From positions 2,108,001 through 2,172,000 of the forward strand of contig NC_008571.1 of the NCBI RefSeq assembly GCF_000060345.1: a stretch of DNA of 64,000 bases, in the 5' to 3' direction. Positions within the stretch are counted from its first letter, which is position 1. Each line of letters opens with the position of its first letter. The DNA comes from Christiangramia forsetii KT0803 (GTDB taxonomy: Bacteria > Bacteroidota > Bacteroidia > Flavobacteriales > Flavobacteriaceae). The notes beneath the pieces are model-generated. The model was not told where the DNA came from. It did not search any database and saw only the letters and a list, made by a program, of their open reading frames with translations. A program made the position numbers and the translations under genes. Positions 12,583 to 43,961 of the stretch are shown in pieces.

Positions 12583-12608
12583 ACGATATTGTTTTTTGAT
12601 CTTATAAA

Positions 12609-16303: not shown

Positions 16304-16381
16304 GCCTACCATAAAATTTGTACCATTGCAAAGTCTATATTCCCTTTAACACCAAATTATAACTTATCAAATCTATCATCT

Positions 16382-23750: not shown

Positions 23751-23759
23751 ATTGTAGTT

Positions 23760-24800: not shown

Positions 24801-24849
24801 GTTCTATATTTTAATAGGAAATTTTTTCTGGAAATGGATTCAGTCTAAT

Positions 24850-25560: not shown

Positions 25561-26218
25561 CTGCTATAATTTCTTTTTTGGATTGTAATGAAGCTCGTGA
25601 AAATTCAAAGCGAAAATGTTCAGATTCGATATATGCAAGAGGATATCCATCGCAATCAAGCATCCTTATATGATCATAAATTTCTAAAACCTGTTGGAGA
25701 TCCGCCATATTCCCGTCTTTGGGTTTACGCCGCTTGAATTCCACTATTTCACCATCTTGCTTTATTGGACTTAAATCATTCTCTATAATTTCACCAATCA
25801 TTTTTTCCACAATAGTGGTAGTTCTTATAAAAATTTCCTGAGCGGTACCTAATAATTGTAAATCCTTTTTCAAATATATAGGACCTGTATCAAGTCCTTC
25901 TTCAACTTTCAAAGCAGAAATCTTTGTATGGGTATGCCCTCTAACTATTAAGTTCTGAAGAGGACTTCCGCCTCTGCCATATGGAAGATCTGTCATATGG
26001 AAAACTACACACTCAAAATTTTCAAAAATCTTAGCCGGAATGATATATGACCAATGCGGTATAAATATTTTTTCAGGTTCTAATTTCTTTAACTCTTCGT
26101 AGGAAAAGTCATTTCTCTCTTTAATTAAAGTCCATTTAAATTCCGGAAAATTGTTTTTTAGTTTAAAATAAATTTCTTCATGCCAAACTTTTTCAGAAAG
26201 AACAATGTAATTTTTCAT
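25538..26218 (-). CDS. formyltransferase-fold protein of the pse operon
   Basis: A 226-residue protein of the methionyl-tRNA formyltransferase superfamily. VVFHMTDLPYGRGGSP (71-86) holds the catalytic His, and EEGLDTGPIY (106-115) the conserved Asp. The Asn normally two residues before that His is Val here. It is shorter than Fmt and has no tRNA-binding domain, so a sugar amine is the expected acceptor, with N10-formyl-tetrahydrofolate as donor. It is coupled to the PIG-L gene by a 23-base overlap and to the GNAT gene by four bases. Loss of Asn leaves the activity open. Confidence 0.7.
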   Translation of the reverse strand: MKNYIVLSEKVWHEEIYFKLKNNFPEFKWTLIKERNDFSYEELKKLEPEKIFIPHWSYIIPAKIFENFECVVFHMTDLPYGRGGSPLQNLIVRGHTHTKISALKVEEGLDTGPIYLKKDLQLLGTAQEIFIRTTTIVEKMIGEIIENDLSPIKQDGEIVEFKRRKPKDGNMADLQQVLEIYDHIRMLDCDGYPLAYIESEHFRFEFSRASLQSKKEIIADVRIIKK

Positions 26219-26649
26219 TTGTAAAGGAATTCAATTATTTCATCATTTTTTTTGTCCATCTCAAATCCCAACTTTTCAAAAACCTTACAGGATGCAATAT
26301 TTTTTCGTTGTACCACCGCCCTCTTCACACCTGATACACTACTTAAACTTAATTCAACCATTCTTTTACCGAAACCCAAGCCTCTATATTCTTTATCAAT
26401 TGAATAATCTATGTCCCAAATTCCATTGGTATTTTTATCGTATCGAATTTGTCCAACAGGTAAATTATCATTTTCAAAGATAAAAATTTCACAACGTGAA
26501 CTATTAAGTTTATTATTAAACCATAATTTATGCTCCTCCCATTTTATTTTTTGACTATCTAATGAGTTCTTTCGGACTTCTTCGTCATTCACCCATTTGA
26601 ATAACAAAGTGCAATCCTGATCATTTATCGACCTTAAGTTTTGTAACAT
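26215..26649 (-). CDS. GNAT-family N-acyltransferase of the pse operon
   Basis: A 144-residue single-domain GNAT (RimJ/RimL-like). The CoA loop is YRGLGFGKRMVE, and NIASCKVFEKLGF closes the fold. It is distinct from the PseH-like GNAT at 27094, so the operon has two acyltransferases. It overlaps the formyltransferase gene by four bases (ATGA). A non-acetyl acyl group, perhaps made with help from the MaoC hydratase next door, is possible but not shown. Confidence 0.75.
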   Translation of the reverse strand: MLQNLRSINDQDCTLLFKWVNDEEVRKNSLDSQKIKWEEHKLWFNNKLNSSRCEIFIFENDNLPVGQIRYDKNTNGIWDIDYSIDKEYRGLGFGKRMVELSLSSVSGVKRAVVQRKNIASCKVFEKLGFEMDKKNDEIIEFLYK

Positions 26650-26665
26650 TTATCTAATGAGCAAT

Positions 26666-27073
26666 TTATTTAATCTCCTTTAAAAAAAAAGCAACAGCTT
26701 TTCCCTCTATCACAATATCTTTTTCATCGTTCTCCACCCAGGTCCTCAATGTTATTATAGGTTTATCCTCTCTGATATGAATCACTTCCACCCATGCAGT
26801 TACTTTTTGGTCTATAAACACAGGTTGTTTAAACGATGTCTCCTGGCTCAAATAGATGGTTCCTGGCCCTGGAAGTTTGCTGCCCAGTATTCCCCCAACA
26901 AGAGAAATCACCATAGGCCCCTGCACAATTCTCTGCCCAAATCTACTTTTTGAGGCATAATTTTCATCAAAGTGTATTGGGTTCTCATCCCCAGAGGTAG
27001 ATGAAAAACTCAAAACATCATGTTCTGAAAATCTTTTAGATAAAGAGGCTCTGTCCCCGACTTTAAATTCCAT
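26666..27073 (-). CDS. MaoC-like (R)-specific enoyl-CoA hydratase
   Basis: A 135-residue single hot-dog domain. SGDENPIHFD (27-36) carries the hydratase motif with catalytic Asp 29 and His 34 as in PhaJ and MaoC. IVQGPMVISLVGGILG is the central helix. PhaJ-type enzymes hydrate crotonyl-CoA to (R)-3-hydroxybutyryl-CoA. Its place between two GNAT genes inside a pse operon suggests it supplies a hydroxyacyl-CoA for N-acylation, as N-3-hydroxybutyryl groups are known on nonulosonic acids. The enzyme class is firm; the role is inferred. Confidence 0.8.
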   Translation of the reverse strand: MEFKVGDRASLSKRFSEHDVLSFSSTSGDENPIHFDENYASKSRFGQRIVQGPMVISLVGGILGSKLPGPGTIYLSQETSFKQPVFIDQKVTAWVEVIHIREDKPIITLRTWVENDEKDIVIEGKAVAFFLKEIK

Positions 27074-27093
27074 ATTAATATTTTTTACTCATA

Positions 27094-27642
27094 TCATACC
27101 GTTTGATAAATTTTGCGGTAGATCTCATCTTTAATATCCCTCCATTCATCTTTTAAAAGGCCAATAGTTATTACGTCTACAAATTCACCATTTTTTTTAA
27201 CATGTTGTTTTAGAAGCCCTTCTTTTTTAAAACCAAACTTGGAATGCATTTCAAGAACTCTAATATTAAAACTGAGCACTTCTCCGCACAGTTTATTCAA
27301 TTTTAAGTCTTCAAATACATAATTAAGCAGGTTAAATTCTACTTTTTTACCAATTCCTTCACCCCTTATTGAAGTATCTCCAAGATAAAAACCCCAAAAA
27401 CATTTACTATTATATGTATCAATATCAATAATATATACCAATCCAAGTTTTCTTCCCTGATACTCAATTATCCAGTACCTACTATTTTTTTCTAGAGATA
27501 TCTTTTTAAACCAACTCTCTTGCTGGTCTGAGGATATTAGATTATCAGTATACATATATTTACTTACCTCAGAGGAATTTCTCCACGTTCTGATTGTTTC
27601 AAGGTCGTCTTCATTTATTTCAATAAAATTTACATCATTCAT
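27094..27642 (-). CDS. pseH: PseH-type N-acetyltransferase
   Basis: A 182-residue GNAT with RTWRNSSEVSKYMYT (19-33) and RGEGIGKKVE as CoA loop, matching PseH, which acetylates the 4-amino group of UDP-4-amino-4,6-dideoxy-AltNAc. KHVKKNGEFVDV near the end is typical. It overlaps pseG by eight bases. PseH in some species accepts other acyl groups, so together with the second GNAT at 26215 two different N-acyl substituents are feasible. Confidence 0.85.
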   Translation of the reverse strand: MNDVNFIEINEDDLETIRTWRNSSEVSKYMYTDNLISSDQQESWFKKISLEKNSRYWIIEYQGRKLGLVYIIDIDTYNSKCFWGFYLGDTSIRGEGIGKKVEFNLLNYVFEDLKLNKLCGEVLSFNIRVLEMHSKFGFKKEGLLKQHVKKNGEFVDVITIGLLKDEWRDIKDEIYRKIYQTV

Positions 27643-28630
27643 TGACCAATTTTTTAAATTTTTTTAAATTGTTCTTAGCAGCATTTCTTAATTCCTTACG
27701 AAATGGTATTTCTTCTATTTTAATTTTATTGTTTTGGATGTCTGCTATGACAGTACTCAATTCTTTTCCATCGAATTTATTAGCATCAAACGACGGCAAC
27801 AAATCTCTATACTTGAAATAATTAAATAATCTTTGTTGATTTTCGGCATAATAACAAATTAACGGAATCGCGCCTCCTGCAAGAACTTCAAGTAATATAC
27901 CGCTGGAAGGTATAATGGCGAGATCTGCTTTCTTAATTTCAGAAAGCATTTCATTCTCATTCAATGAAGATGAAATTTTAATTTTAGGGTTCTTTTTTTC
28001 TATATCGTTCAATGATTCATGGTGAGTATAAGCAGAGCCTAATATTACCGAGATTCTTTCCATCATATCATTTTCAGCTACTATTTCCAAAACAGATTTT
28101 GTGAGATTTTTAAAATCTGAACCCCCAAAGCAAATTAATACATGCTTGATTTCATCGATTTTTTTATTATCCTTGGTAGCCTCGAGAAAAGCTGGTCGTA
28201 GCAAGGCATACCCGGGGCCTAATGCAAATTTCGTGTATGGCTGTGCTAGATAATCTTTTGGAGAAATACCTGGTGAATGATTGATTATTAAATCTGCAAA
28301 AAATACTTTGTCATGCAGGTCATCTATACAAACCAATTTACTTCCAATTTCTTTTACTCTCTTTTGATAAGTAGAATCTAATTCGTAGTGATCTAGCACT
28401 ACAATTTCATCACCGTTCAGAAAATTGAAAAATTCTTCTTCTTCTGAAATTCTTGACACTGAAAATCCTTCAACTACGAAAGTGGTCTCGATAATTTTTG
28501 GAATGGATCTCGTAACGAAATGTATATTAAAAGAGCCTTTGAGCATTTTGGCCAATGCAAAGCACCTGATAATGTGACCTAAGCCAATTTCCGGACTTCC
28601 ATCTGCTCTTATATATATTTTATCTTTCAT
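27635..28630 (-). CDS. pseG: UDP-2,4-diacetamido-2,4,6-trideoxy-beta-L-altropyranose hydrolase
   Basis: A 331-residue GT-B fold UDP-sugar hydrolase. YIRADGSPEIGLGHIIRC (6-23) contains the conserved RxD and the catalytic His 19 of PseG; FGGSD at about 168 and SSGILLEVLAGG correspond to the nucleotide-binding half. It cuts UDP from the altrose sugar before the PseI step. Overlaps of 11 bases with pseF upstream and eight with pseH downstream keep it tightly in the operon. Confidence 0.9.
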   Translation of the reverse strand: MKDKIYIRADGSPEIGLGHIIRCFALAKMLKGSFNIHFVTRSIPKIIETTFVVEGFSVSRISEEEEFFNFLNGDEIVVLDHYELDSTYQKRVKEIGSKLVCIDDLHDKVFFADLIINHSPGISPKDYLAQPYTKFALGPGYALLRPAFLEATKDNKKIDEIKHVLICFGGSDFKNLTKSVLEIVAENDMMERISVILGSAYTHHESLNDIEKKNPKIKISSSLNENEMLSEIKKADLAIIPSSGILLEVLAGGAIPLICYYAENQQRLFNYFKYRDLLPSFDANKFDGKELSTVIADIQNNKIKIEEIPFRKELRNAAKNNLKKFKKLVNE

Positions 28631-29333
28631 TCAGATTCAAAAAATATTCTGCCATTTCCAAATCCTCATACTCATCTATATCAATTGCTTTTTTCCAATG
28701 CATGGGATAGAAGCTGTATTCCGGACCATAAAAACTATTTGTTTCAAAAAGACTATCTCGATTAGCAATCCAAATCGCCCCGGTAGGACAATAAAGGTCT
28801 GGCTGATCCTGTGATCTTTTTATTCTTTCTTCGCTATCAAATATGGGGGTTGCAATATTATTTGCATCCAAATTATGAGCCCACCATGGATTCATCCATC
28901 CATACTTAAAACAACTGATCTGATATTCCTTGCCTTTCTTAATGAAAATTTCAATTGCCTCATCTATGTCCGCACTATCTCTTAAAGGGCAATTCGCCAT
29001 TAATTGAACTACAATTTCTGGTTTTCCATAACTTCCTTCTTCCCACTGGCTCACCGCCCTAATAGTTGCAAGGCTTATAGGAGAGTGATCATCTGAATTA
29101 GAATCTCGTAAAAACGGCACATCGGCACCATATTTCTTTGCTACTTCAGCGATTTCTACATCGTCTGTACTTACGAGTACACGATCAATATATTTAGATT
29201 TCAGGGCCGCTTCTATAGTCCAGGCAATCATTGGTTTGCCGCCAATGTCTATAATATTCTTTTTAGGTATTCTTTTAGAACCTCCCCTTGCCGGTATTAC
29301 AGCAATAATTCTTCTATTTACCAAATTGTCCAT
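28620..29333 (-). CDS. pseF: pseudaminic acid cytidylyltransferase
   Basis: A 237-residue CMP-nonulosonate synthetase of the NeuA/PseF family. IPARGGSKRIPKKNI is the nucleotide-binding loop; QLMANCPLRDSADID is the metal-binding part. The order in a pse operon points to PseF rather than NeuA, although the two are hard to separate by eye. It overlaps the SDR gene by 16 bases upstream. The product CMP-nonulosonate is the donor for the GT-B enzyme at 22566. Confidence 0.85.
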   Translation of the reverse strand: MDNLVNRRIIAVIPARGGSKRIPKKNIIDIGGKPMIAWTIEAALKSKYIDRVLVSTDDVEIAEVAKKYGADVPFLRDSNSDDHSPISLATIRAVSQWEEGSYGKPEIVVQLMANCPLRDSADIDEAIEIFIKKGKEYQISCFKYGWMNPWWAHNLDANNIATPIFDSEERIKRSQDQPDLYCPTGAIWIANRDSLFETNSFYGPEYSFYPMHWKKAIDIDEYEDLEMAEYFLNLNER

Positions 29334-30076
29334 CCTCCGTCAACTTTTATATTTTGCCCGGTCATATTATTGGAATTATCAGAAACCAAAAAATCAACAG
29401 GTCCTATTACATCTTCCTCCTCCAGCATCTTTTGCTGTGGTGTTAAATTTTTGTAGCGGCTTTCAAAATCCTTATCCGTCCTACCTTTTATCCCTCCAAA
29501 ACTAACACAATTAACCCTAATTTCGGGAGCTAAACGAACTGCCAATTCTTTGGTTAGGTGAATTTGGGCTGCTTTAGAAACCCCGTAATGCACAGCAGAT
29601 GATTCTTCAAAATTATCATACAAGGATGGGGTGGGAGCAACTACGCCATACATGGACGATATAAAAATTATATTCTCAATTTTATGAGACGCATTATTAA
29701 TCAATTCCATAGATAGCCGATATGGAAAAACAACATCCATAAATAATTCTCCGGAAAAATTTTCCGCAGAAATAGTTTTATCGTTTTCTAATTTTAAGAA
29801 CCTAAGTGATCGGGCATTATGGATGACATGTGTTAAGACTATTTTGTTGGATTGAATAAATGTTCTAATTAAATTTAAAGCGCTGTTCTCTGAAAAGTCA
29901 ACTTCAATCACTTTAAAATTCTCGAGGTTATATCCCGATAATTCTGAATGTTTTTTATCTAAAAAACGTTCTCGGTTAGTAGATGTAGTGATCACCTTGT
30001 ACCCATTGCCCAAAAAATGCCTGACAAGTTGAAAACCTACTTTACCACTCCCCCCCGTAATTAAAATATTTTTCAT
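29318..30076 (-). CDS. short-chain dehydrogenase/reductase in the pse operon
   Basis: A 252-residue classical SDR. GGSGKVGFQLVRH is the NAD(P) loop, and YGVSKAA gives the catalytic Tyr and Lys. The C-terminal VDGGW is the usual SDR end. It is joined to pseF by a 16-base overlap and to the Gfo/Idh gene by four bases. It is one of three extra oxidoreductases inserted between pseC and pseF. A role in making a variant nonulosonic acid or an acyl donor is likely but unidentified. Confidence 0.85.
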   Translation of the reverse strand: MKNILITGGSGKVGFQLVRHFLGNGYKVITTSTNRERFLDKKHSELSGYNLENFKVIEVDFSENSALNLIRTFIQSNKIVLTHVIHNARSLRFLKLENDKTISAENFSGELFMDVVFPYRLSMELINNASHKIENIIFISSMYGVVAPTPSLYDNFEESSAVHYGVSKAAQIHLTKELAVRLAPEIRVNCVSFGGIKGRTDKDFESRYKNLTPQQKMLEEEDVIGPVDFLVSDNSNNMTGQNIKVDGGWTIW

Positions 30077-30969
30077 CTTTTACCTTTTTCTAAAATTTGA
30101 ATTATTTCGAGTGTCTCCTCCCTGTTGATATTACTCTCAATTCCATTTACTAAGTTCACAAATTTCTTAAGCGAACTTTTAAAACATGCATAAGAGTCCC
30201 TAAAATCTTTTTCTATCACACCCTTTAAGCCATAAAATGACAATTTTATAGGAATTGGTATATTACCGGTAACTTTAATATACGCAGTAGTATTTTTCCA
30301 TTCAATCATACAACTGGAAAGATGTTGATTATGGATACTCTTAACATTAAGTAGTTCGCCTCTTTCAGGCAGACGGGAAACAATCGGTTCTATTAAATGT
30401 ATAGCGTAGGTATCCCATTTTTTTGGTATAGCTGCTTCTACATGAACTATTTCTCCAATACTGTCCTTTTCCTGGTCTGTCAAATTTAGTTCCTCAGCAA
30501 AGCGAATAGAAGAACAGGAAAAAACCTGATCTTCAAACTGCTGTACATCTAAAATTTTGTTAGCTTCAAATACAGATAAAGCCAAAGGCTTATCAATGAA
30601 AATAGGAATTCCGGATTTCAAAAATGGCAAAGCCATTTTATAGTGATTTTCGGCATCATCCCTGGCTAATAGAACAGCATCTACTTCCCCGACCATATCC
30701 TCAAGATTTTCTACTACAATTTCAATTTTCGCAGCTGCCGCAATATGTTTTGAAGTGGCTATATCCTGAGTCCAAATATGGGTGACTTTACCGAAGTTCC
30801 CCAAACTAGCTTCTGGAAATTTTTGTTTCGCTAAATATTCAGGAATTGCAGGAAAAGGGCAATCCTCCATTTTTTCTTTATCAAAGCCATTAAATATGGC
30901 GCTCCAGGAATAAGGATGCCCATTCCCATCGCTCATACCAACAACGCCTATTTTTAGTTTTTTGGCCAT
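30073..30969 (-). CDS. Gfo/Idh/MocA-family oxidoreductase in the pse operon
   Basis: A 298-residue protein with an N-terminal Rossmann domain; the loop is an unusual GVVGMSDGNGHPYSW, with extra residues before the usual Gly-rich turn. IDKPLALS corresponds to the EKP motif that carries the catalytic Lys. The C-terminal half is shorter than in typical family members (about 330-390). It overlaps the AKR gene by 16 bases. The substrate is unknown; a nucleotide sugar or keto-sugar is expected. Confidence 0.75.
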   Translation of the reverse strand: MAKKLKIGVVGMSDGNGHPYSWSAIFNGFDKEKMEDCPFPAIPEYLAKQKFPEASLGNFGKVTHIWTQDIATSKHIAAAAKIEIVVENLEDMVGEVDAVLLARDDAENHYKMALPFLKSGIPIFIDKPLALSVFEANKILDVQQFEDQVFSCSSIRFAEELNLTDQEKDSIGEIVHVEAAIPKKWDTYAIHLIEPIVSRLPERGELLNVKSIHNQHLSSCMIEWKNTTAYIKVTGNIPIPIKLSFYGLKGVIEKDFRDSYACFKSSLKKFVNLVNGIESNINREETLEIIQILEKGKR

Positions 30970-31787
30970 CGGGATGGAATTAAAATATTATCATTTATTT
31001 TATATTGTAACTCTGGAAGTTGTGAAGCTAATTCCAAGTTTGTTAGATTTTCAATTAACTGCTTATTAGTCTCAACACCAATGATAATTTTATCTATAAA
31101 TGGTTGTTGCACGGCAAATTTTAAGAGAGCTCCATTTAAAAATTCTTTTTTTTGTAACTGGCTTAAGGGCCGCTTTACTTCATCAAAAAAATTGTCTAAC
31201 TTATTTGGATTCATGAAAAATAAGCCTTGTAAAAAAGCTGATCGCGTATGAATTTCGCAACCTTCTTTTTTAAGATCTTTTAAAAGAATTTCAAATCTCC
31301 TGTCAAAATAATTATACGGAACCTGAACAAGATCTGGTATAAAGCCTTTATCAATTAGGAGTACCAGCTCCTTTGGTTCGTTTAAAGAGAACCCAATTTT
31401 ATCCACTTTAGATTTACTTTTGAATTCCAATAATTCATCCCATTGTGAAGGGTTTTCCAAGAAATCCATTGGGCGGTGAGCAAGGTACCCATGTAACTTT
31501 TCAAGTCCGAGTTTTTCTAAGCTTGTCTCGAGTTGTATGGAAATAGATTCCATACTGGCTGGCATAAATTTGGATACCATTTGAAATGGAGATAAATCAT
31601 TTTGACCCAAAACATTTTCGGAATTTCCATAAGCACTCGCCGAATCCAAAACTTCTATATTATAAGCTTTAGCTGTATTTAAAATCTCTTTGACTTCCAT
31701 AGAGCTGGTTTGTCCGGTTTTATTAGAAATACCATAAGGAAGTCCAAACTGAACTGTTCCTAAACCTAGCTTTTTAATCAACTTCAT
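30954..31787 (-). CDS. aldo/keto reductase in the pse operon
   Basis: A 277-residue aldo/keto reductase TIM barrel. VLDSASAYGNSEN contains the catalytic Asp and Tyr, VSKFMP the Lys and LAHRP the His. The NADPH-binding end (IIIGVETNKQLIENL) is present. It overlaps pseC by 14 bases and the Gfo/Idh gene by 16. Its presence in a pse operon points to an extra keto reduction in a modified pathway; substrate unknown. Confidence 0.85.
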   Translation of the reverse strand: MKLIKKLGLGTVQFGLPYGISNKTGQTSSMEVKEILNTAKAYNIEVLDSASAYGNSENVLGQNDLSPFQMVSKFMPASMESISIQLETSLEKLGLEKLHGYLAHRPMDFLENPSQWDELLEFKSKSKVDKIGFSLNEPKELVLLIDKGFIPDLVQVPYNYFDRRFEILLKDLKKEGCEIHTRSAFLQGLFFMNPNKLDNFFDEVKRPLSQLQKKEFLNGALLKFAVQQPFIDKIIIGVETNKQLIENLTNLELASQLPELQYKINDNILIPSRWPKN

Positions 31788-32982
31788 AAAAATTGTTAAT
31801 GTGATCTATCACAAAATCCTGTTCATTCTTTTCCAGAGTTGGATACATAGGTAAACTTATACAATTACGATAATACTCTTCCGATTGTGCCAAATCTCCT
31901 TCTCGCCAACCCAGTTCACGATAGTAAGGCATTAAATGACATGGGATATAGTGAATCTGCGCAAAAATCTTATTTTCCCGCAAGTAATTATATAAGCCCA
32001 GCCTATCATCTACTTCGAGCACGTACAAATGATATGCATGTCCCTCAATAACTCCAGACTGCCCCTTCGCAAATTTTTTGTCAGCAAAGGCTTGATCATA
32101 TCTTGCAGCGAGCATTCTTCGTTTCTCAAGTCCCTCGTCAGCTCTTTTTAATTGGCTAGTTCCCAAAGCTGCCTGAAAATCTGTTAATCTATAATTATAT
32201 CCCAATTCCTGCATTTCCATATACCAATTTGGAAATGTACTATTCCCGGAAGCCCCTCCTGCGAATTCTATAGAATTCTCAAAAATTTCTTCACTTTTGG
32301 TAATCCCGTGGGTTCGTAATTTCAGAAGTTTCTCATAGAGCTTTTTGTCATTGGTGGTAATCATGCCGCCTTCTCCGCATGCAATATGTTTTACAGGATG
32401 AAATGAAAAAATAGCTAAATCTGCAAATTGCCCATTACCACATAATTGTTTATTGCCATTAGAATCTACAAAGTATCCTCCAGGTGCATGACATGAATCT
32501 TCAATAATCCATAAATTATATTCTTCAGCAAGATTTCTAAATTCTTCTAGATTTACCGCTCTACCCGCGAAGTCTACAGGTATTAGACCTTTATAAGTTC
32601 CCTTCGGGGCACTTTCTAATAAATCTCTCACTTTATCAATATCTAATAGATAAGTCTCTGGGTTTATATCTGCAAATACCACCTCTCCTCCACAATATCT
32701 TATGCAATTTGCCGAAGCAGCGAATGTTATTGGTGTAGTTATAACTTTATCCCCTGATTGTATATTTAAAGACATCGCACAAAGGTGAAGTGCTGCAGTA
32801 CCATTGGAGACCGCTACCGCATATCTGCTGTCTACATAAGCAGCAAAAGATTCCTCAAATTCTGCTATTTTTGGACCTTGAGTAAGATAATCTGATTTCA
32901 GAGTTTCAATTACAACTTCAATATCTTCTTCTGTGATATTTTGGCGGCCGTATGGAATTGGTTGATTCATATTATACTTCAA
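31774..32982 (-). CDS. pseC: UDP-4-amino-4,6-dideoxy-N-acetyl-beta-L-altrosamine transaminase
   Basis: A 402-residue DegT-type PLP aminotransferase. PLP binds through Lys 198 (FSFHPVKHIACGEGGM region) with Asp 162 in EDSCHAPGG; NGTAALHL and TTPITFAAS are PseC hallmarks. It aminates C4 of the PseB product using glutamate. The frame starts at 32982, but Met 5 (32970) would begin just after the pseB stop and precedes the conserved NQPIPYGRQ, so it may be the real start. Confidence 0.92.
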   Translation of the reverse strand: MKYNMNQPIPYGRQNITEEDIEVVIETLKSDYLTQGPKIAEFEESFAAYVDSRYAVAVSNGTAALHLCAMSLNIQSGDKVITTPITFAASANCIRYCGGEVVFADINPETYLLDIDKVRDLLESAPKGTYKGLIPVDFAGRAVNLEEFRNLAEEYNLWIIEDSCHAPGGYFVDSNGNKQLCGNGQFADLAIFSFHPVKHIACGEGGMITTNDKKLYEKLLKLRTHGITKSEEIFENSIEFAGGASGNSTFPNWYMEMQELGYNYRLTDFQAALGTSQLKRADEGLEKRRMLAARYDQAFADKKFAKGQSGVIEGHAYHLYVLEVDDRLGLYNYLRENKIFAQIHYIPCHLMPYYRELGWREGDLAQSEEYYRNCISLPMYPTLEKNEQDFVIDHINNFYEVD

Positions 32983-33988
32983 ATGTTGGGTCTACATGTT
33001 CTTTTATTAAATCTCTGAGATCCTCTACGGATTCCCATTCATCATTTTCTCCCGAATTATATTGAAAACCTGGTGCTACTTTCTTCGCATTGAATTTCTC
33101 GATAAAATCCTCTAATTTCCACTTATGAGTAGCCGGAAGAATTGTGTAATATTTACCTAAATCATATGTGTAATAAGAATCGGAATCGGTTATCATTTCT
33201 TCGTGAATTTTCTCTCCCGGACGAATACCTACAACCGGTTTATCACAATCTGGACCTATAGCTTCGGCAATATCAGTAATTTTATAAGAAGGAATTTTCG
33301 GAACAAAAATTTCACCACCCCAGGCATGTTCCAATGCATGCATTACCATATCCACTCCACCCTGAAGTGAAATATTGAATCTGGTCATTGTAGGATCAGT
33401 AATTGGTAATACACCCTCATTTCTTTTTTTGAGAAAAAACGGGATTACTGAACCATTAGATCCCATTACATTACCATATCGTACAACTGAAAATTTAATG
33501 GGATTCCAGCCTGTTATATTATTGGCAGCTACAAACAATTTATCTGAAGCTAATTTAGTAGCACCATATAAATTAATAGGTGCCGCAGCTTTATCTGTTG
33601 AAAGTGCTACTACACGTTCGACACTGGTTTCCAGAGATGCATTGATTATGTTTTCAGCTCCCATAATATTTGTCTTAACACATTCCATAGGATTGTATTC
33701 AGCTATGGGCACATGTTTCATAGCAGCTGCATGAATCACATAATCAATACCTTTTAAAGCCCTATTAACCCTGGCTTCATCTCTAACATCACCTATAAAA
33801 AATCTTATTTGCGGATACTTTTCAACAGGATAATCCTGTGCCATCTCAAATTGTTTTTGTTCATCGCGAGAAAAAATAACTAGCTTTTTGAGATTCGAAT
33901 GTTTGCCAAGAATATGAGCGGTTAAGGCTTTTCCTAAGGATCCTGTTCCGCCGGTTATTAAAATAGATTTACCAGTTAAATCAAACAT
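32972..33988 (-). CDS. pseB: UDP-N-acetylglucosamine 4,6-dehydratase (5-inverting)
   Basis: A 338-residue extended SDR. GGTGSLGKAL (14-23) is the NAD(P) loop; YGATKLASDKLF supplies the catalytic Tyr and Lys. The protein has the PseB/FlaA1 length and the MKHVPIAEYNP motif. It opens the pseudaminic acid route from UDP-GlcNAc. It heads the operon, 25 bases after a -7 box, and a 213-base gap separates it from the ABC transporter gene. Confidence 0.93.
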   Translation of the reverse strand: MFDLTGKSILITGGTGSLGKALTAHILGKHSNLKKLVIFSRDEQKQFEMAQDYPVEKYPQIRFFIGDVRDEARVNRALKGIDYVIHAAAMKHVPIAEYNPMECVKTNIMGAENIINASLETSVERVVALSTDKAAAPINLYGATKLASDKLFVAANNITGWNPIKFSVVRYGNVMGSNGSVIPFFLKKRNEGVLPITDPTMTRFNISLQGGVDMVMHALEHAWGGEIFVPKIPSYKITDIAEAIGPDCDKPVVGIRPGEKIHEEMITDSDSYYTYDLGKYYTILPATHKWKLEDFIEKFNAKKVAPGFQYNSGENDEWESVEDLRDLIKEHVDPTFEV

Positions 33989-36934: not shown

Positions 36935-37792
36935 TTAGTAAAGGAAATAAGACTTTACCAATTTTTTATTCTCTAGAAGTGCATTATAAAAATCTTTTCG
37001 GCCTAATAAGGATTTCCATGTATAATGAAAAATAATTTTCAGTCCATAATTTTTGATAATATTTTTTTTAGTTGGAAAATTTTCTATCATAAGAATCCTA
37101 TCTTCTAACTTATTTTTTAAAGTGTTAATTCTATTCCTACCAGAAGTTGCTCCCGCTGAATGAATGTTATATTGTGCAGTCACACTCTCCAAATTATAAC
37201 CTTTTCCATATCGAAGTAAACTGCACCATATAGGCCAATCTACTGTAAAGAAATCATTAAAGTTCTCCCATGGAGGCAAATCCAGGGCTGATTTTTTAAC
37301 AACGGCTGAGCAAGTAGTAAATTGATTTTTTCTTAAAACCTGATCCAAGTTTATTTCCCCATATATTTTTCCTTCACTTTCTTTTCGAACCTTCGACTCA
37401 TTTAAACTTTGCACTTTAGATCCACATATTGTATAATCTTCATTTTCCAATAGTAATTTCAACTGCTTTTCCAACTTGTGACTATCCGTCCAAAAATCAT
37501 CACCCTCACACAGCGCTATATAATCACCCTCACATTCCTTCAAGGTTGAAAGCCAATTACCCACCATCCCTAGATTTTGATCTCGCTCAATAACTTTTAT
37601 AAGATCAGGATATTTACGTTCATATTTTTTGCAAATAGCTAGTGTATTATCCGTAGACTTATCTTCTCCAATTATAATCTCGTAATCAAAGTCCAATTTC
37701 TGACCAATGGCCGATTCCAGACATTTTTCTAAAAATTTCTCGTGATTATAGGTAATAATACACGCTGAAACTTTAATCCTTTTCTTTTTCAT
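36935..37792 (-). CDS. GT2-family glycosyltransferase
   Basis: A 285-residue GT-A enzyme with ACIITYNHEKFLEKCL (10-25), IIGEDKSTDNTL and CEGDDFWTD, which carries the acidic metal-binding pair. It is of the WaaE/KdtX-like or capsule GT2 type. Its start overlaps the end of the N-formyltransferase gene by 20 bases, suggesting that it handles a sugar made by this dTDP pathway, but that is inference. Confidence 0.88.
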   Translation of the reverse strand: MKKKRIKVSACIITYNHEKFLEKCLESAIGQKLDFDYEIIIGEDKSTDNTLAICKKYERKYPDLIKVIERDQNLGMVGNWLSTLKECEGDYIALCEGDDFWTDSHKLEKQLKLLLENEDYTICGSKVQSLNESKVRKESEGKIYGEINLDQVLRKNQFTTCSAVVKKSALDLPPWENFNDFFTVDWPIWCSLLRYGKGYNLESVTAQYNIHSAGATSGRNRINTLKNKLEDRILMIENFPTKKNIIKNYGLKIIFHYTWKSLLGRKDFYNALLENKKLVKSYFLY

Positions 37793-38522
37793 CCTCAGGA
37801 ATTAAAGATAAATTGACATAAACTTTTCTACCAGATTCAGGATCAGTATAATACATATTCTTGTAACTGCCATGGGTTAAAGCTCGAAGCCTATTTATAA
37901 TATTTCTATAAGTATCAGTCTCATCCATATTTATTTCCAGCAGTTCCTTAAAATCACGCTTAGAAAAGAAATTACCGCCAGTTTCCGGTTTTTTAGTCAA
38001 ATAATTACCATCGAATATTTTATCAAAATTTTCTTGTAACAATTCCATTTCAGCATTTAAAACACGATTATATAAAGTAAGAGAGGTATCCCAAGAAAAT
38101 TTTTCTACAAATTTTCGAGATATAATGGGACCATTATCTAACTTTTCATCCATTTCGTGAATAGTAGCTCCTATCTGGAGATCATTGATGATAGAAAATA
38201 CCTGTGGATACCACCCACGATTAACAGGATTATACCCAGGATGAATATTTATACAACGAATTCCGTTAACTAATTTAGCAGGAAAGAATTGATAGCAGTG
38301 TACTGATACAACCATATGGAAATTTTCCAAAATCCAATCAGTCTTTTGGTTGACATCTAAAATTTTATTTTGATTTTTAAAATCTATATGATCCCAAATA
38401 TCAGTTGGAACATTACTATGATAAAAATCGAAATTTAAATTTGCTCTATTTTTCTTATTAATTAAAGATTGGATCTTTTCATATTGCTGAAGATTATCTA
38501 TAATAACCAATATCCTTTTCAT
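37773..38522 (-). CDS. dTDP-4-amino-sugar N-formyltransferase (VioF/WlaRD-like)
   Basis: A 249-residue formyltransferase fold protein. INIHPGYNPVNRGWYPQVF (91-109) has the Asn-Ile-His-Pro catalytic signature of dTDP-4-amino sugar N-formyltransferases, followed by the Asp in HEMDEKLDNGPI. The C-terminal part beyond residue 200 is an extension seen in VioF and WlaRD. It would formylate the 4-amino group made by the aminotransferase at 38527 using N10-formyl-THF. It lies four bases after that gene. Confidence 0.82.
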   Translation of the reverse strand: MKRILVIIDNLQQYEKIQSLINKKNRANLNFDFYHSNVPTDIWDHIDFKNQNKILDVNQKTDWILENFHMVVSVHCYQFFPAKLVNGIRCINIHPGYNPVNRGWYPQVFSIINDLQIGATIHEMDEKLDNGPIISRKFVEKFSWDTSLTLYNRVLNAEMELLQENFDKIFDGNYLTKKPETGGNFFSKRDFKELLEINMDETDTYRNIINRLRALTHGSYKNMYYTDPESGRKVYVNLSLIPEDEKEKD

Positions 38523-38526
38523 CTAT

Positions 38527-39627
38527 CTAATGTTCAAGTTTTTCTAGAATAATTTTTGCAATGTACTCTATCTCTAATGGGGTTAAATTATAAAAAAGAG
38601 GAAGACACATTATTCTTTTAGAAATATCTTCTGATATGGGAGTAGGTTGATGATTTAAAATTTTCGAATATGTATTAACGGAAGGATAAAAATAACGTCT
38701 GGGAAAAATCTCGTTCTTATTCAAAGCCTTTTCCACCTTAAGAAGTTCTTCTTCAGATGAAAATATTACTGGAAAATAAGAATAATTGGTTTCGTTCTCT
38801 TTTATTTTTTGAAAATTCAGTTTTTCTGATTTACCTAGAAGATCTAGATACATTAAATACTTCTCTTTCCTATCTTTCAATACATCATCAAAATATTTTA
38901 AATTGGCAATCCCCAGAGCGGCGTGAATTTCTGTCATTTTTCCATTAAATCCATCCTCTACTACTTCCTTTTCTTCATTATGCCCAAAAAACCGAATTCT
39001 CTCCACCTTTTTCCTTAAGCTACTACTGGTTGTGATACAGGCCCCTCCTTCGCCAGTATTATAAAGTTTTGTAGCATGTAAACTTGTCGCAGAAATATCT
39101 CCATATTGAAGTAAACTATTTCCTTTGTAGGAACTTCCAATAGCATGTGCGGCATCATAAATCACCTTTAAATTATGTTTTTTAGCGATCTTCTCAATTT
39201 TTTCTACGTTACAGGCTGTCCCAAAAACATGGACCGGCATTATTGCTACAGTATCTTTGGTTATTAAACCTTCAATTTTTTCTTCATCTATATTTAATGT
39301 ATCTGGATCAATATCACAAAAAACAGGACTACAACCTTCCCATTTGATCGCACTAATAGTAGCTACCCAAGTGAATGGCGTAGTAATAATATCGCCTTTA
39401 AGCTCTAAAGCTTTTATTGCCATTTGCAATGCTACAGTGCCATTCAGAACCAAAGTAAAATTGGGAATATTCAATTTGTTCTCTAAATCCTTTTCCAATT
39501 TTCGAACCTTTGGACCATTATGAGTTAAAATTCCCGATTTCCAAACTTCTTCTAATAAATCGGTATATTCCTCTAAGGGAGCCAAGGAAGGTTGAGTAAC
39601 AAAAATTGATTTTCTTTTACTATTCAT
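38527..39627 (-). CDS. DegT-type dTDP-4-keto-6-deoxyhexose 4-aminotransferase (VioA-like)
   Basis: A 366-residue PLP enzyme. Lys 187 (HATKLYNTGEGG) binds PLP, with Asp 158 in IYDAAHA. TPFTWVATISAIKWEG and VFCDIDPDTLNID match the VioA/DegT group acting on dTDP-4-keto-6-deoxyglucose. The next genes upstream encode a 3-ketoreductase and a 2,3-dehydratase, so here the substrate is probably dTDP-4-keto-2,6-dideoxyhexose. Its end is four bases from the N-formyltransferase gene, and its start overlaps the reductase gene by eight. Confidence 0.82.
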   Translation of the reverse strand: MNSKRKSIFVTQPSLAPLEEYTDLLEEVWKSGILTHNGPKVRKLEKDLENKLNIPNFTLVLNGTVALQMAIKALELKGDIITTPFTWVATISAIKWEGCSPVFCDIDPDTLNIDEEKIEGLITKDTVAIMPVHVFGTACNVEKIEKIAKKHNLKVIYDAAHAIGSSYKGNSLLQYGDISATSLHATKLYNTGEGGACITTSSSLRKKVERIRFFGHNEEKEVVEDGFNGKMTEIHAALGIANLKYFDDVLKDRKEKYLMYLDLLGKSEKLNFQKIKENETNYSYFPVIFSSEEELLKVEKALNKNEIFPRRYFYPSVNTYSKILNHQPTPISEDISKRIMCLPLFYNLTPLEIEYIAKIILEKLEH

Positions 39628-40606
39628 TAGACTTTGATTTAAATTCCTCTAATAGACGAGCTTGATTGATATTTTGCGAATATTCAATATTTTTATCTTT
39701 AATACCTGTTACCAACTCATAAAAATAAATCAGCATATTCCTGAAGTGATTATCAGACTCTAACTCAATTTCTCTCATGCCATCTTTATTTGTTTCTAGA
39801 ATAATCTTTGGTTTGAAAGATTCTTTAGCTGTGAAAATTCTATTGGTATACATTTTACCTTTTGAACCTACAACCTCCAAATTGCACTGGTAAAAATTAT
39901 CAAATCCAAAAGAAAATTGCGAAAATAACTTACCATTTTTCTGTTGCAACGTACCCCCTCCCCAAATATCTACATCAAAATTACTATTAGAATTACTCTT
40001 AGCAGAAGTAATATAAAGTTCGGGCCCCATGAGTATTTGAGATAATTTTATGGTATAGGCCCCCGCATCCAATAATGCACCCCCTCCAAGTTCTTTTTTA
40101 TATCGAATATTATCTGAATCTGTAAATGGAGGGAAACAGAAGGTACTTCTAATAATTCTTATATCACCAATTACGCCATTATTAATGATTTTTTTTATTT
40201 CAGATAATTGGGAATGAAATCTAAACTGAAAATTTTCGACGAGAGCTAAATTGGATTCTTTAGCAATTTCATTAAGTTCTTTAACCTCTTCATATTCACA
40301 AGCCAAAGATTTCTCAACTAATACATGCAAACCTTTCTTTAAAGCTTTCTTTACCCAAGTGTAATGCAGTGAGTTGGGTAGAGGAATATAAACTGCATCT
40401 AGTATATTTTGTTCTAGAATTGATTCATATCCTTCGTACAAAGTGTAGGCATAAGAAGTTTCCTCCATATTTTTGGGGTGCCTTGATGCTAAACCAACAA
40501 ATTCAAATTTGTCGGACAGATTCTGGATCTCGGGTATTAAAGACCGCATTGCAATATTAGCAGCACCCAAAACTCCGACTCTTATCTTCGAACTACTTTT
40601 TAACAT
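39620..40606 (-). CDS. Gfo/Idh/MocA reductase, probable dTDP-3,4-diketo-2,6-dideoxyhexose 3-ketoreductase
   Basis: A 328-residue Gfo/Idh/MocA protein. VGVLGAANIAMRSLIPE is the Rossmann loop, and VLVEKSLACEY is the EKP-like catalytic segment. In deoxysugar routes (KijD10, TylCII and relatives) a member of this family reduces the 3-keto group right after the 2,3-dehydratase. The pair overlaps by seven bases here. The enzyme class is certain; the exact step is inferred from pairing with 40600-42021. Confidence 0.7.
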   Translation of the reverse strand: MLKSSSKIRVGVLGAANIAMRSLIPEIQNLSDKFEFVGLASRHPKNMEETSYAYTLYEGYESILEQNILDAVYIPLPNSLHYTWVKKALKKGLHVLVEKSLACEYEEVKELNEIAKESNLALVENFQFRFHSQLSEIKKIINNGVIGDIRIIRSTFCFPPFTDSDNIRYKKELGGGALLDAGAYTIKLSQILMGPELYITSAKSNSNSNFDVDIWGGGTLQQKNGKLFSQFSFGFDNFYQCNLEVVGSKGKMYTNRIFTAKESFKPKIILETNKDGMREIELESDNHFRNMLIYFYELVTGIKDKNIEYSQNINQARLLEEFKSKSNE

Positions 40607-42021
40607 AAATTAAAGGATAATGCAGCCATAAGACTTCTGGCCTGAATGTTTATATAATTATTATGTTTTATAAATGTTTGTAATTGGCTATATGTCATCC
40701 AGATAAAATTATCCGGAATCTCTTCGGCGAAACCGCTATCAGCAAAAACTATCATATTTCTATTTTGCTCTCGATAAAACCTACCTCCTTCTTCAGACTG
40801 CAATGTGTCAAATAAAATTTTATCTTCTGTAGCTTCAAGTACATAATTCAAATAGGGAATAGGATTTTCAGATTTCGCAGTAAATTTTTCTGTCAAAGAT
40901 TGTACTGTAGGTGCCAGTTCAATTATATCAAAATTTCCACATTCTAATTTTGCCTGAACCAGAAAATGTAAAACACCATTGATGTTTTTGCAAATAAAAG
41001 CGCAGATTCCGTCCTGTGCTGGTTTAACCATTGGTTGGGTCCAATTAATAACTTCTCTATTGCTAATCTTAATTTTGGCAGCGATAATTTCGAAATACTT
41101 ATGATCTATGTGATGAATGCTAGTATTGTCAATAACCCAATCATTTAAGGCAGATAAAGGAATTTTGGTTACATCTAACTCAAAATTACACTTATGATTT
41201 GTAATAAAGAGAATTACATCATTTAAAGTATTTATACCCTTAGCATCATTCGCACAGGATTTTAAAAGACCTTTATTGAATTCGTGGGAAGAAATTTCAG
41301 AAATAGAACTTACTAGACTCAGACTTTCGTATTCAAAATTACCCAATGGTATTCCCGAGATAACTGTCCTGGTGTCCATGTTAACAATATTATCTATTAG
41401 CATCAACTCTTTTATTTGAGCTAAGCTTAACCACATAAAGTTCTCTAAAACTTCGAGTTCTTCTTTTACATTGATTATAATATTTCTATTCCTTTTTTTT
41501 AGAAACCTACCACCTTGTTCTGATTGCAGTTGATCCAATAGAATATTTTCTCGGGTTGCCTTTTGAAAATATTCTAAATAAGCTGGTGCCTTTCCCTTAT
41601 GTACCCTTGAATAATTACTTTTTGTTGCTTGTAATGTTGGTGATAATTGTACATAGTTGATATTACCCGGTTCAACTTTAGCTTGCATTAGGAAATGTAG
41701 AACGCCATTAAACTCTTTGGTGATAAAACCGAGGTATCCTATTTCAGGCTGATTAATTATTGGTTGATTCCATTGGTGTTTCCCCCCATAATTAGTGGTT
41801 ACAGAAAGTCCATCGATGGAAAAAAATTTTCCTGAATGATGACTTAAAGAAGAATCGTTAAATCCCCAACTCTCTAATTCTGAAAAAGCAATTTGTTCAA
41901 CCTCAACTTTTATAATTGAATTCTGCCTCTTAATCCACTTAAGAGCTTCTTCAGTTGTAACAATTGAATTTTCCTTTTCTAAAAGACTTTTTAAAAATAT
42001 TTTGTTCAATCTTCTCTCCAT
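40600..42021 (-). CDS. NDP-hexose 2,3-dehydratase
   Basis: A 473-residue protein of two internally homologous halves, the fold of the NDP-hexose 2,3-dehydratase family (TylX3, SpnO, KijB). The first repeat (about 40-180) shows WNQPIINQPEIGYLGF, GVLHFLMQAKVEPGN, and QSEQGGRF; the second (about 280-450) shows WTQPMVKPAQDG, GVLHFLVQAKLECGN, and QSEEGGRF. The enzyme removes the C2 hydroxyl from dTDP-4-keto-6-deoxyglucose. It lies between rmlA (18 bases) and the 3-ketoreductase. This family is mostly known from antibiotic and O-antigen pathways. Confidence 0.9.
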   Translation of the reverse strand: MERRLNKIFLKSLLEKENSIVTTEEALKWIKRQNSIIKVEVEQIAFSELESWGFNDSSLSHHSGKFFSIDGLSVTTNYGGKHQWNQPIINQPEIGYLGFITKEFNGVLHFLMQAKVEPGNINYVQLSPTLQATKSNYSRVHKGKAPAYLEYFQKATRENILLDQLQSEQGGRFLKKRNRNIIINVKEELEVLENFMWLSLAQIKELMLIDNIVNMDTRTVISGIPLGNFEYESLSLVSSISEISSHEFNKGLLKSCANDAKGINTLNDVILFITNHKCNFELDVTKIPLSALNDWVIDNTSIHHIDHKYFEIIAAKIKISNREVINWTQPMVKPAQDGICAFICKNINGVLHFLVQAKLECGNFDIIELAPTVQSLTEKFTAKSENPIPYLNYVLEATEDKILFDTLQSEEGGRFYREQNRNMIVFADSGFAEEIPDNFIWMTYSQLQTFIKHNNYINIQARSLMAALSFNLC

Positions 42022-42039
42022 CCGGATATTATTCAGAAA

Positions 42040-42912
42040 TTACTGCAAAATAGTTTCACCCATTTCTTTTAGATATTCACCATACTTAGATTTACCATAT
42101 TGCTTGTAAAGTTTGGCCAGTGAACCTTTATCAATAAACTTACTTAAATAAGCTACTTCCTCTATGCAGCCAATCATAGTACTCTGCCGATTCTGAAGCA
42201 CTCTAATAAATTCTGTAGCATCATCTAAAGATTCTACGGTGCCCGTATCAAACCAACTCATACCCCTGGTCATAACTCCTACTTCAAGGGCATCATTTTG
42301 CAAATACATTTGATTAATGCTACTAATTTCCTTTTCACCGCGATCGGAGGGAGTCACCTTCTTAGCATATTCAACTACGTTGTTATCATAAAAATATAAT
42401 CCAGGTACGGCATACTTTGATTTCGGGGAACTTGGCTTTTCTTCAATGCTTTTGACTTTTTTATCCTTATCAAATTCCACAACGCCATATCTTTGAGGAT
42501 CCTTTACAGGGTACGCAAAAATCGAAGCACCACTGACATCTGTTTTACTTCTTAATAAGTTAACAAGACCATTCCCATGAAAAATGTTATCACCTAATGC
42601 CAAGGCTACCTTTTCATTACCAATAAACTTCTCACCTATAATAAATGCTTCAGCCAGTCCATTGGGTTCCTCCTGTACTGAATATTCAAAATTACAGCCC
42701 AAATGGGTACCATCACCCAATAACTTCTTGAACGCTTCCTGATCATTAGGAGTTGTAATAAAGAGAATATCTTTTATCCCTGCCAACATTAAGACCGATA
42801 AAGGATAATAAATCATAGGTTTATCATAGACTGGCAGTAATTGCTTACTTACAGCTATCGTAATAGGGTATAATCTAGTACCACTCCCCCCTGCTAAAAT
42901 AATTCCTTTCAT
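42040..42912 (-). CDS. rmlA: glucose-1-phosphate thymidylyltransferase
   Basis: A 290-residue nucleotidyltransferase. GGSGTRLYPITIAVSKQLL carries the dTTP-binding loop with the catalytic Arg and Lys; EKPSSPKSKYAVPGLYFYD and GDNIFHGNG are RmlA signatures. It makes dTDP-glucose from glucose-1-phosphate. It is five bases after rmlB. rmlC and rmlD are not in the window, so the product here feeds a non-rhamnose sugar. Confidence 0.95.
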   Translation of the reverse strand: MKGIILAGGSGTRLYPITIAVSKQLLPVYDKPMIYYPLSVLMLAGIKDILFITTPNDQEAFKKLLGDGTHLGCNFEYSVQEEPNGLAEAFIIGEKFIGNEKVALALGDNIFHGNGLVNLLRSKTDVSGASIFAYPVKDPQRYGVVEFDKDKKVKSIEEKPSSPKSKYAVPGLYFYDNNVVEYAKKVTPSDRGEKEISSINQMYLQNDALEVGVMTRGMSWFDTGTVESLDDATEFIRVLQNRQSTMIGCIEEVAYLSKFIDKGSLAKLYKQYGKSKYGEYLKEMGETILQ

Positions 42913-42917
42913 AGATT

Positions 42918-43961
42918 TTATTTATATTGTTTATTATAGTATTCCCTATATTTTCCTTTGGTTACATTATCTAACCACTCTTCATGCGATAAGTACCAAT
43001 CGATCGTTTTTTCCAAGCCTTCTTCAAAAGTCACAGAAGGCTTCCATCCAAGCTCTTCATTAATTTTACTTGCATCAATAGCGTAACGTTTATCATGGCC
43101 AGGCCTGTCTTTAACGTAAGTAATTAATTTAGCAGAGTCACCATCTGTTCTATTCAATTTTCTATCCATTATTTTACAGAGCAGCTGAACCAGTTCAATA
43201 TTTTTCCATTCATTAAATCCTCCAATATTGTATGTTTCTTTAATTTTTCCTTGGTGCAGTAAAAGATCAATCGCAATAGCATGATCTTTTACATAAAGCC
43301 AATCCCTTGTATAATTACCATCTCCGTATACAGGTAACGCCTTCTTTTTAACTATGTTATTAATAAATAGTGGAATCAATTTCTCTGGAAATTGATTTGG
43401 TCCATAGTTATTCGAACAGTTAGAAATAATATAAGGTAGTCCATAAGTTTCGCCATATGCTCTTACAAAATGATCTGAACTTGCTTTTGAAGCTGAATAT
43501 GGAGAGTTTGGATCATAAGCTGTAGTTTCGGTAAATAATCCTGTATCTCCTAGCGTACCATATACTTCATCAGTGCTAATATGATAAAAAAGCTTATCCT
43601 TAAAATCATTTTTCCAATTTTCTAATGCAGCATTTAAAAGGTTCATGGTGCCTATAACATTTGTTTTCACAAAAATTAAAGGATCAGATATCGAACGATC
43701 AACATGTGATTCTGCTGCGAGGTGTATTACCTTAGTAAATTTATATTTCTTGAACAAATCACTAATTTCCTGAGCGTTATTGATATCAGCCTTCAAAAAA
43801 GTATAATTCCTTTCTGATTCTATGTCCTTTAAATTTTCAAGATTGCCAGCGTAAGTTAACGCATCAAGATTAAATATGCTGTATTCTGGATATTCATTAA
43901 CCAGCAATCGCACTACATGTGAACCTATAAATCCTGCACCACCTGTAATTAAAATGTTCAT
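42918..43961 (-). CDS. rmlB: dTDP-glucose 4,6-dehydratase
   Basis: A 347-residue extended SDR. ITGGAGFIGSHVVR (5-18) binds NAD; STDEVYG and YSASKASSDHF carry the catalytic Thr/Asp/Glu and the Tyr-Lys pair typical of RmlB. Its product dTDP-4-keto-6-deoxyglucose is the shared precursor for the deoxysugar genes downstream. A truncated relative of this gene is seen at 48964-49065. Confidence 0.95.
   Translation of the reverse strand: MNILITGGAGFIGSHVVRLLVNEYPEYSIFNLDALTYAGNLENLKDIESERNYTFLKADINNAQEISDLFKKYKFTKVIHLAAESHVDRSISDPLIFVKTNVIGTMNLLNAALENWKNDFKDKLFYHISTDEVYGTLGDTGLFTETTAYDPNSPYSASKASSDHFVRAYGETYGLPYIISNCSNNYGPNQFPEKLIPLFINNIVKKKALPVYGDGNYTRDWLYVKDHAIAIDLLLHQGKIKETYNIGGFNEWKNIELVQLLCKIMDRKLNRTDGDSAKLITYVKDRPGHDKRYAIDASKINEELGWKPSVTFEEGLEKTIDWYLSHEEWLDNVTKGKYREYYNKQYK

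Follow-up and report, generated by a model that had tools for sequence, protein, structure and literature searches.

A six-gene cassette in Christiangramia forsetii predicted to make a dTDP-4-formamido-2,4,6-trideoxyhexose

The cassette and its enzymes

The window analysed here is a 64,000-nucleotide stretch of the genome of Christiangramia forsetii KT0803 (NC_008571.1, positions 2,108,001-2,172,000), and coordinates below are window positions unless another locus is named. On its minus strand it carries six adjacent genes whose products may together make a 4-formamido-2,4,6-trideoxyhexose linked to deoxythymidine diphosphate (dTDP). In the order of transcription these encode RmlB (dTDP-glucose 4,6-dehydratase; 42918-43961), RmlA (glucose-1-phosphate thymidylyltransferase; 42040-42912), a dTDP-4-keto-6-deoxyglucose 2,3-dehydratase of the EvaA kind (40600-42021), a Gfo/Idh 3-ketoreductase of the KijD10 kind (39620-40606), a DegT/DnrJ aminotransferase predicted to act at C4 (38527-39627) and a VioF-type N-formyltransferase (37773-38522). 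All six open reading frames (ORFs) were found present and open in an ORF check of the window. The successive gaps between them are 5, 18, -7, -8 and 4 bp, the largest thus being 18 bp, with the dehydratase and reductase genes overlapping by 7 bp and the reductase and aminotransferase genes by 8 bp. The initial annotation had placed six adjacent genes, in this order, within 37773-42912; the adjacency and order stand, but the RmlB gene lies 5 bp beyond the upper edge of that interval.

RmlA scores 437.9 bits against TIGR01207 (cutoff 360.65) and RmlB 465.1 bits against TIGR01181 (cutoff 365.1). Each is the only protein of the genome over its cutoff, among 2 and 15 matches respectively, and the idea that they are copies dedicated to the cassette was rejected for this reason. 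The one RmlC match in the genome is found at 3.446 Mb beside RmlD, about 1.3 Mb from the cassette. Since the cassette holds the sole RmlA and RmlB copies and the RmlC-RmlD pair lies elsewhere, the two enzymes probably serve rhamnose synthesis as well.

The dehydratase contains two PF03559 stretches (501.4 bits in all), the tandem-domain arrangement of the EvaA family. EvaA itself (4j7g, E 5.2e-100) was the only solved relative found, and both halves of the protein align with it. Residues E117 and E168 align without gaps with EvaA E139 and E190, so the glutamates of pocket A are kept; in the matched text of a review, mutation of either residue abolished EvaA activity (PMC8987622). The window enzyme is predicted to convert dTDP-4-keto-6-deoxyglucose to a 3,4-diketo-2,6-dideoxy sugar. 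Of 76 aligned dehydratases, 73 have glutamate at both pocket A and both pocket B positions, among them 16 of the 17 from Actinomycetota (rows shorter than 380 aa and the loci L010, L012 and L013 were excluded from this alignment), and two intact pockets were consequently rejected as a special trait.

The nearest solved relative of the reductase is labelled 'Sugar 3-ketoreductase' (3rbv, E 1.4e-52), which we take to be KijD10; the next other protein follows at 2e-25. K99 and Y184 fall at the positions mutated in variant chains of that enzyme (the Lys in 3rcb and 3rc9, the Tyr in 3rc7), presumably its catalytic residues. The window protein is therefore closest to KijD10 among the solved Gfo/Idh proteins and keeps both the Lys and the Tyr, as would be expected of a reductase of this type.

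The formyltransferase scores 414.3 bits (cutoff 238) against NF005755, a model named 'dTDP-4-amino-4,6-dideoxyglucose formyltransferase', which also matches the homologues in the related loci L099, L100 and L101 (314.4, 379.9 and 278.5 bits). Its N92, H94 and D129, which we take to be the catalytic residues, are aligned in the PDB matches Rv3404c, VioF (4yfv) and others.

The weakest of the six assignments is that of the aminotransferase, a PF01041 protein. Its best NCBIfam model is DesI (TIGR04427), against which it scores 237.3 bits where the equivalog cutoff is 650, and it is filed here as DesI-like, not as DesI. The nearest PDB structure is 2po3 (E 5.9e-46), an entry labelled 4-dehydrase which we take to be DesI. 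In a tree holding only three PDB references, as fragments, the window enzyme groups with DesI at 100/97, apart from the 3-aminotransferase QdtB. K187 lies within an SLHATK motif and, judged by that motif, is presumably the pyridoxal phosphate lysine. The enzyme has a lysine where 3-dehydratases carry histidine.

The position of this enzyme in the tree bears on the carbon that is aminated. Antibiotic sugars are commonly aminated at C3 once 2,3-dehydration has taken place, and amination of the 3,4-diketo intermediate at C3 with reduction at C4 would give dTDP-3-formamido-2,3,6-trideoxyhexose, in the manner of daunosamine-type pathways. One DegT protein beside a dehydratase, that of locus L043, does group with QdtB. 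The window enzyme groups with DesI instead, the nearest solved relative of the reductase is labelled a 3-ketoreductase, and the formyltransferase family takes its name from a 4-amino sugar. In addition, the acetyltransferase that replaces the formyltransferase in two relatives (see below) is nearest to structures of VioB and perosamine N-acetyltransferase, both of which act on the 4-N. We consider amination at C3 highly improbable, and amination at C4 is assumed in what follows.

The predicted route and its alternatives

The family models, nearest structures and kept residues uphold each enzyme assignment of the initial annotation, least firmly that of the aminotransferase, and together with the relatives they support the route to dTDP-4-formamido-2,4,6-trideoxyhexose that it had proposed. 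Gene content, gene order, residues and phylogeny are read from the sequences, and homology is the basis on which the individual reactions and their order are predicted. We regard it as likely that the cassette makes this sugar for a surface glycan. The starting dTDP-4-keto-6-deoxyglucose would come from RmlA and RmlB, and the EvaA-type enzyme would eliminate its 2-hydroxyl; the KijD10-type enzyme would then reduce C3 of the diketo sugar, restoring the 3-hydroxyl, before the DesI-like enzyme aminates C4 and the VioF-type enzyme formylates the 4-amine. The last step would add an exchangeable cap, formyl in this case. The predicted product (C17H27N3O14P2; 559.10 Da, calculated by hand) would be distinguishable by mass from one with the 2-hydroxyl kept (575.09 Da).

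The configuration, likewise predicted from homology, is most likely D-gluco (D-arabino-hexose). KijD10-type reductases give an equatorial 3-hydroxyl. D-gluco is expected because the reductase implies this hydroxyl, the aminotransferase and formyltransferase families imply an equatorial 4-amine, and the cassette contains no 5-epimerase gene.

Dehydratases of this family are sparse among relatives of C. forsetii. With its own genome included, PF03559 was found in 2 of 299 family-drawn, 3 of 395 phylum-drawn and 4 of 24 genus genomes. In two further species of the genus (genomes G691 and G699, loci L099 and L100) all six genes recur in unchanged order; the fourth member (G680) and Gramella sp. 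AN32 (locus L015) have identical dehydratase genes. Between the window and L100 the six proteins are 78-94% identical, with ratios of nonsynonymous to synonymous substitution (dN/dS) of 0.02-0.11 (dS 0.61-2.06, partly near saturation). The conserved order and these low ratios argue that the grouping of the six genes is not due to chance.

It could still be that the formyltransferase is unrelated to the cassette, or the cassette silent, and that the final amine is free or otherwise substituted. The window does contain a second, different formyltransferase gene (25538-26218). Several observations stand against this reading: the VioF-type gene starts 4 bp after the aminotransferase gene and overlaps a glycosyltransferase gene, its dN/dS of 0.11 against L100 indicates purifying selection, and within the genus it is confined to genomes that bear the dehydratase. 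Specifically, at E 1e-20 or better it was found in 3 of 24 genus genomes (the window's, G691 and G699), all dehydratase-bearing, a co-occurrence with a probability of 4/2024 = 0.002, calculated by hand, on the assumption, which does not hold, that species are independent. We therefore think it very unlikely that the formyltransferase has no part in the cassette or that the cassette is silent. The second formyltransferase, a Formyl_trans_N protein, is followed directly by a PIG-L deacetylase (24850-26218 for the pair, minus strand) within a pseudaminic-acid-like cluster. A formyltransferase and PIG-L pair, arranged in that order, is also present in genome G664, upstream of its dehydratase (L012, 5679-7330).

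A second alternative is that two sugars are drawn from one pool, with the aminotransferase and formyltransferase making the N-formyl derivative of dTDP-4-amino-4,6-dideoxyglucose (dTDP-Qui4N), dTDP-Qui4NFo, directly, and the dehydratase and reductase feeding a 2,6-dideoxyhexose that is not aminated. Such a division would suit the name of the formyltransferase family, and it would suit locus L101 as well. This locus belongs to another member of the Flavobacteriaceae (G148), one of three among 249 family-drawn genomes with a formyltransferase (the others being the window's own and G026, 31%). Its aminotransferase, formyltransferase and GT2 glycosyltransferase are 47%, 44-45% and 41% identical to those of the window, and no dehydratase or reductase is found in the 15 kb stretch read; it looks like an ordinary Qui4NFo type. 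Because of this pair, the Flavobacteriaceae probably had formylated 4-amino sugars already, and the 2-deoxy version is probably the rare part.

Other loci pair the dehydratase and reductase with a short-chain dehydrogenase/reductase (SDR) and no DegT protein (L010), or with neither, which would again agree with two separate sugars. To place these we drew on 75 loci obtained by searching species genomes with two short peptide patterns, a sample rather than a census. The comparison covered 74 of them (L088 was dropped, its dehydratase ORF being too short), counting as near any gene within 4.5 kb of the dehydratase, as window-type DegT a score of 350 bits or more and as Flaviramulus-like SDR one of 200 bits or more; several contigs end near the dehydratase, and presence counts are thus lower bounds. 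Seven of the 74 loci have a window-type DegT gene near the dehydratase; they belong to Bacteroidota, Kiritimatiellota, Ignavibacteriota, Planctomycetota and Verrucomicrobiota, and the trio of dehydratase, reductase and window-type DegT recurs across these five phyla. The SDR was near in 7 of 74 (the Flaviramulus record included), and the two were never found together (0/74). We rejected mutual exclusion, which carries little weight, as zero overlap would be expected by chance about half of the time; the pattern weakly fits two ways of handling C4, by DegT or by SDR, and counts weakly against two sugars. Against two sugars there also stand the lack of a C4 reductase gene in the window cassette and the overlapping of the dehydratase, reductase and aminotransferase genes, alongside the recurrence of the trio. 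In our view a split into two sugars is improbable. A single linear route is favoured because the trio recurs in other phyla and because an acetyltransferase replaces the formyltransferase in two relatives.

Further loci vary the theme. In genome G664 (L012/L013) the dehydratase gene is split across two contig ends and accompanied by the reductase and a window-type DegT (58%); the gene that follows DegT is PhyH-like, not a recognised cap gene. Among nine other aminotransferases, the WecE-type NCBIfam cutoff is passed by those of L018, L021, L028, L060 and L062, those of L017, L063 and L067 match DesI best, below cutoff, and that of L043 matches PseC best, also below cutoff.

A number of points weigh against the linear route. 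The aminotransferase falls far short of the DesI cutoff, DesI forms a long branch in the DegT tree, and there are four other DegT-family matches elsewhere in the genome (29-35% identity). The name of the formyltransferase family refers to the 2-hydroxylated dTDP-Qui4N, and it is assumed that the enzyme also accepts the 2-deoxy form. Neither window-type DegT nor SDR is near the dehydratase in 60 of 74 loci, in some through contig ends. A VioF-type formyltransferase (E 1e-8 or better) is found in 0 of 79 loci (L010-L088), and within the searched set it joins the cassette only inside the genus of the window.

The surroundings of the cassette include GT2 genes, an ABC transporter with a membrane domain, PseB, PseC and a NeuB-family gene, and with such neighbours the sugar is more probably destined for a surface glycan than for a secondary metabolite. 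The GT2 glycosyltransferase gene next to the cassette (PF00535; 36935-37792, minus strand) overlaps the formyltransferase gene by 20 bp, and its product is a candidate that may transfer the finished sugar. Homologues adjoin the cap gene in L100 (88%), L015 (38%) and L101 (41%); in L099 and in Salegentibacter sp. 24 (L014) the homologue is not beside the cap gene, and a different gene stands there. A nonulosonic acid cluster occupies 22566-33988 on the minus strand, with PseB and PseC over cutoff and the NeuB-family gene. It also encodes an aldo-keto reductase (30954-31787), a weakly matching Gfo/Idh-like protein (30073-30969), an SDR (29318-30076) and a MaoC-like protein (26666-27073); judged by eye, L100 has the genes from PseB through the Gfo/Idh-like protein too. 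At 14591-18106 on the plus strand lie two similar tandem ORFs of 570 and 574 aa, asparagine-synthase-like by eye.

Exchange of the cap

Two relatives, Salegentibacter sp. 24 (L014) and Gramella sp. AN32 (L015), have a gene for a VioB/PglD-type acetyltransferase directly behind DegT, in place of the formyltransferase gene. The two proteins score 186.6 and 189.7 bits against the NeuD/PglB/VioB family (cutoff 160.8), and the nearest structures to that of L014 are VioB (7txp), presumably the dTDP-Qui4N 4-N-acetyltransferase, and perosamine N-acetyltransferase. On the 4-amine of dTDP-Qui4N, VioB acetylates and VioF formylates. As the two share this target, the swap of one cap for the other supports a 4-amino sugar as the product of the aminotransferase.

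The type of cap does not follow the phylogeny of the preceding genes. In a tree of dehydratase and reductase sequences (13 chosen rows, with L036 and L013 excluded for having a fragmented reductase or dehydratase gene), L099 (formyl) groups with L015 (acetyl) at 100/100, and the window and L100 (both formyl) group with L014 (acetyl), also at 100/100. Forcing the three formyl loci together was rejected by the approximately unbiased (AU) test (p 3.6e-73), the tree having been tested after pairwise identities already pointed the same way. At least two cap changes, counted by hand, are needed on this tree. The disagreement indicates that caps have been exchanged.

The DegT gene may hold the point of exchange. 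Along it, L015 is nearer to L099 over the first two thirds and nearer to L014 over the last third, and the maximum chi-square test puts a breakpoint behind alignment column 285 (permutation p 0.002). Four more triplets were tested: the one comparing L100 with the window and L014 gave p 0.0036, and the others 0.27, 0.20 and 0.11, all five tests being uncorrected; the breakpoint in the L100 gene (9168-10268 of that locus) follows column 264, near that of L015. Separate AU tests on the two parts of DegT did not reach significance (p 0.23 and 0.11). Together, this is suggestive of exchange through the 3' end of the DegT gene.

A wider picture can be drawn, though we lean somewhat against it as a whole: a modular core would make dTDP-4-amino-2,4,6-trideoxyglucose, formyl and acetyl caps would be swapped by recombination through the 3' part of DegT, so that within a flavobacterial genus a hitherto undescribed envelope sugar would switch in the manner of serotypes, and Aquimarina would have a parallel galacto version assembled from different enzyme families. 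The greater interest of the finding lies in the exchangeable cap. Coupled to amination at C4 and to varied acyl caps, the recurrence of the dehydratases in Bacteroidota and other phyla would enlarge the set of sugars known from bacterial surfaces, and natural enzyme pairs (formyl or acetyl cap, DesI-like or WecE-type amination) would become available for rare dTDP sugars.

Comparison with known systems

In the matched text of PMC8987622, known sugar 2,3-dehydratases are tied to antibiotic pathways; in the loci read here they recur in Bacteroidota and other phyla beside apparent glycan genes. The matches listed from a review of marine glycans include a 7-formamido nonulosonic acid, formyl as an N-acyl group of an amino-dideoxy-D-glucose and 2,4,6-trideoxy sugars with a 2-amino group (PMC3210612). 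No report of the present formamido trideoxy sugar was found among the literature matches listed, nor any literature combining 3-dehydratase, formyltransferase and polysaccharide, in a search that left subscription papers mostly outside. The combination of 2-deoxygenation with a 4-N-formyl group appears to be new within the literature searched.

The closest parallel for the last steps is the VioF pathway to dTDP-Qui4NFo, known from Providencia alcalifaciens O30, in which an aminotransferase is likewise followed by an NF005755-family formyltransferase acting on a dTDP-4-amino sugar. That route keeps the 2-hydroxyl, whereas the window adds a 2,3-dehydratase and a 3-ketoreductase. The VioB pathway to the N-acetyl sugar dTDP-Qui4NAc is matched in its ending by the cassettes of L014 and L015, which close with a VioB/PglD-type enzyme where that of the window closes with a formyltransferase.

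An uncultured Aquimarina (L018) also has adjacent 2,3-dehydratase, reductase, formyltransferase and aminotransferase genes, the last three lying behind the dehydratase (10384-13387). Its aminotransferase is WecE-type (455.6 bits, cutoff 375), unlike the DesI-like enzyme of the window, and its formyltransferase, built of Formyl_trans_N and _C domains, matches no NCBIfam model at E 1e-30 or better. Since the WecE-type assignment is over cutoff, a galacto 4-amine is expected, and L018 is predicted to be a separately assembled cassette combining the formyl group and 2-deoxygenation, making the galacto epimer.

Among antibiotic sugars, the forosamine of spinosyn shares the early steps. In Saccharopolyspora spinosa (L046) a 2,3-dehydratase (42%) and a 3-ketoreductase (33%) lie side by side; from organism and family we take them to be candidates for SpnO and SpnN. 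Forosamine also loses its 3-hydroxyl, through an enzyme named in the matched text as the 3-dehydratase SpnQ (PMC8987622), whereas the DegT protein of the window keeps lysine, not histidine.

Vicenisamine offers the fuller comparison. It is the sugar of an actinomycete macrolactam and has the D-ribo configuration, whereas the setting of the window is a flavobacterial glycan cluster and D-arabino is expected of its product. In the matched text on its biosynthesis, the dehydratase VinD, the 3-ketoreductase VinE and the aminotransferase VinF are followed by N-methylation (PMC11284099). The series, which opens with a thymidylyltransferase and a 4,6-dehydratase, yields a 4-amino-2,4,6-trideoxy sugar. 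By family only, counterparts of VinA, VinB, VinD, VinE and VinF stand in one cluster in the window in the same logical order, and where the N-methyltransferase VinG performs the last step the window has a formyltransferase. The window pathway would thus work like that of vicenisamine up to the amine, yet it is not a member of that system.

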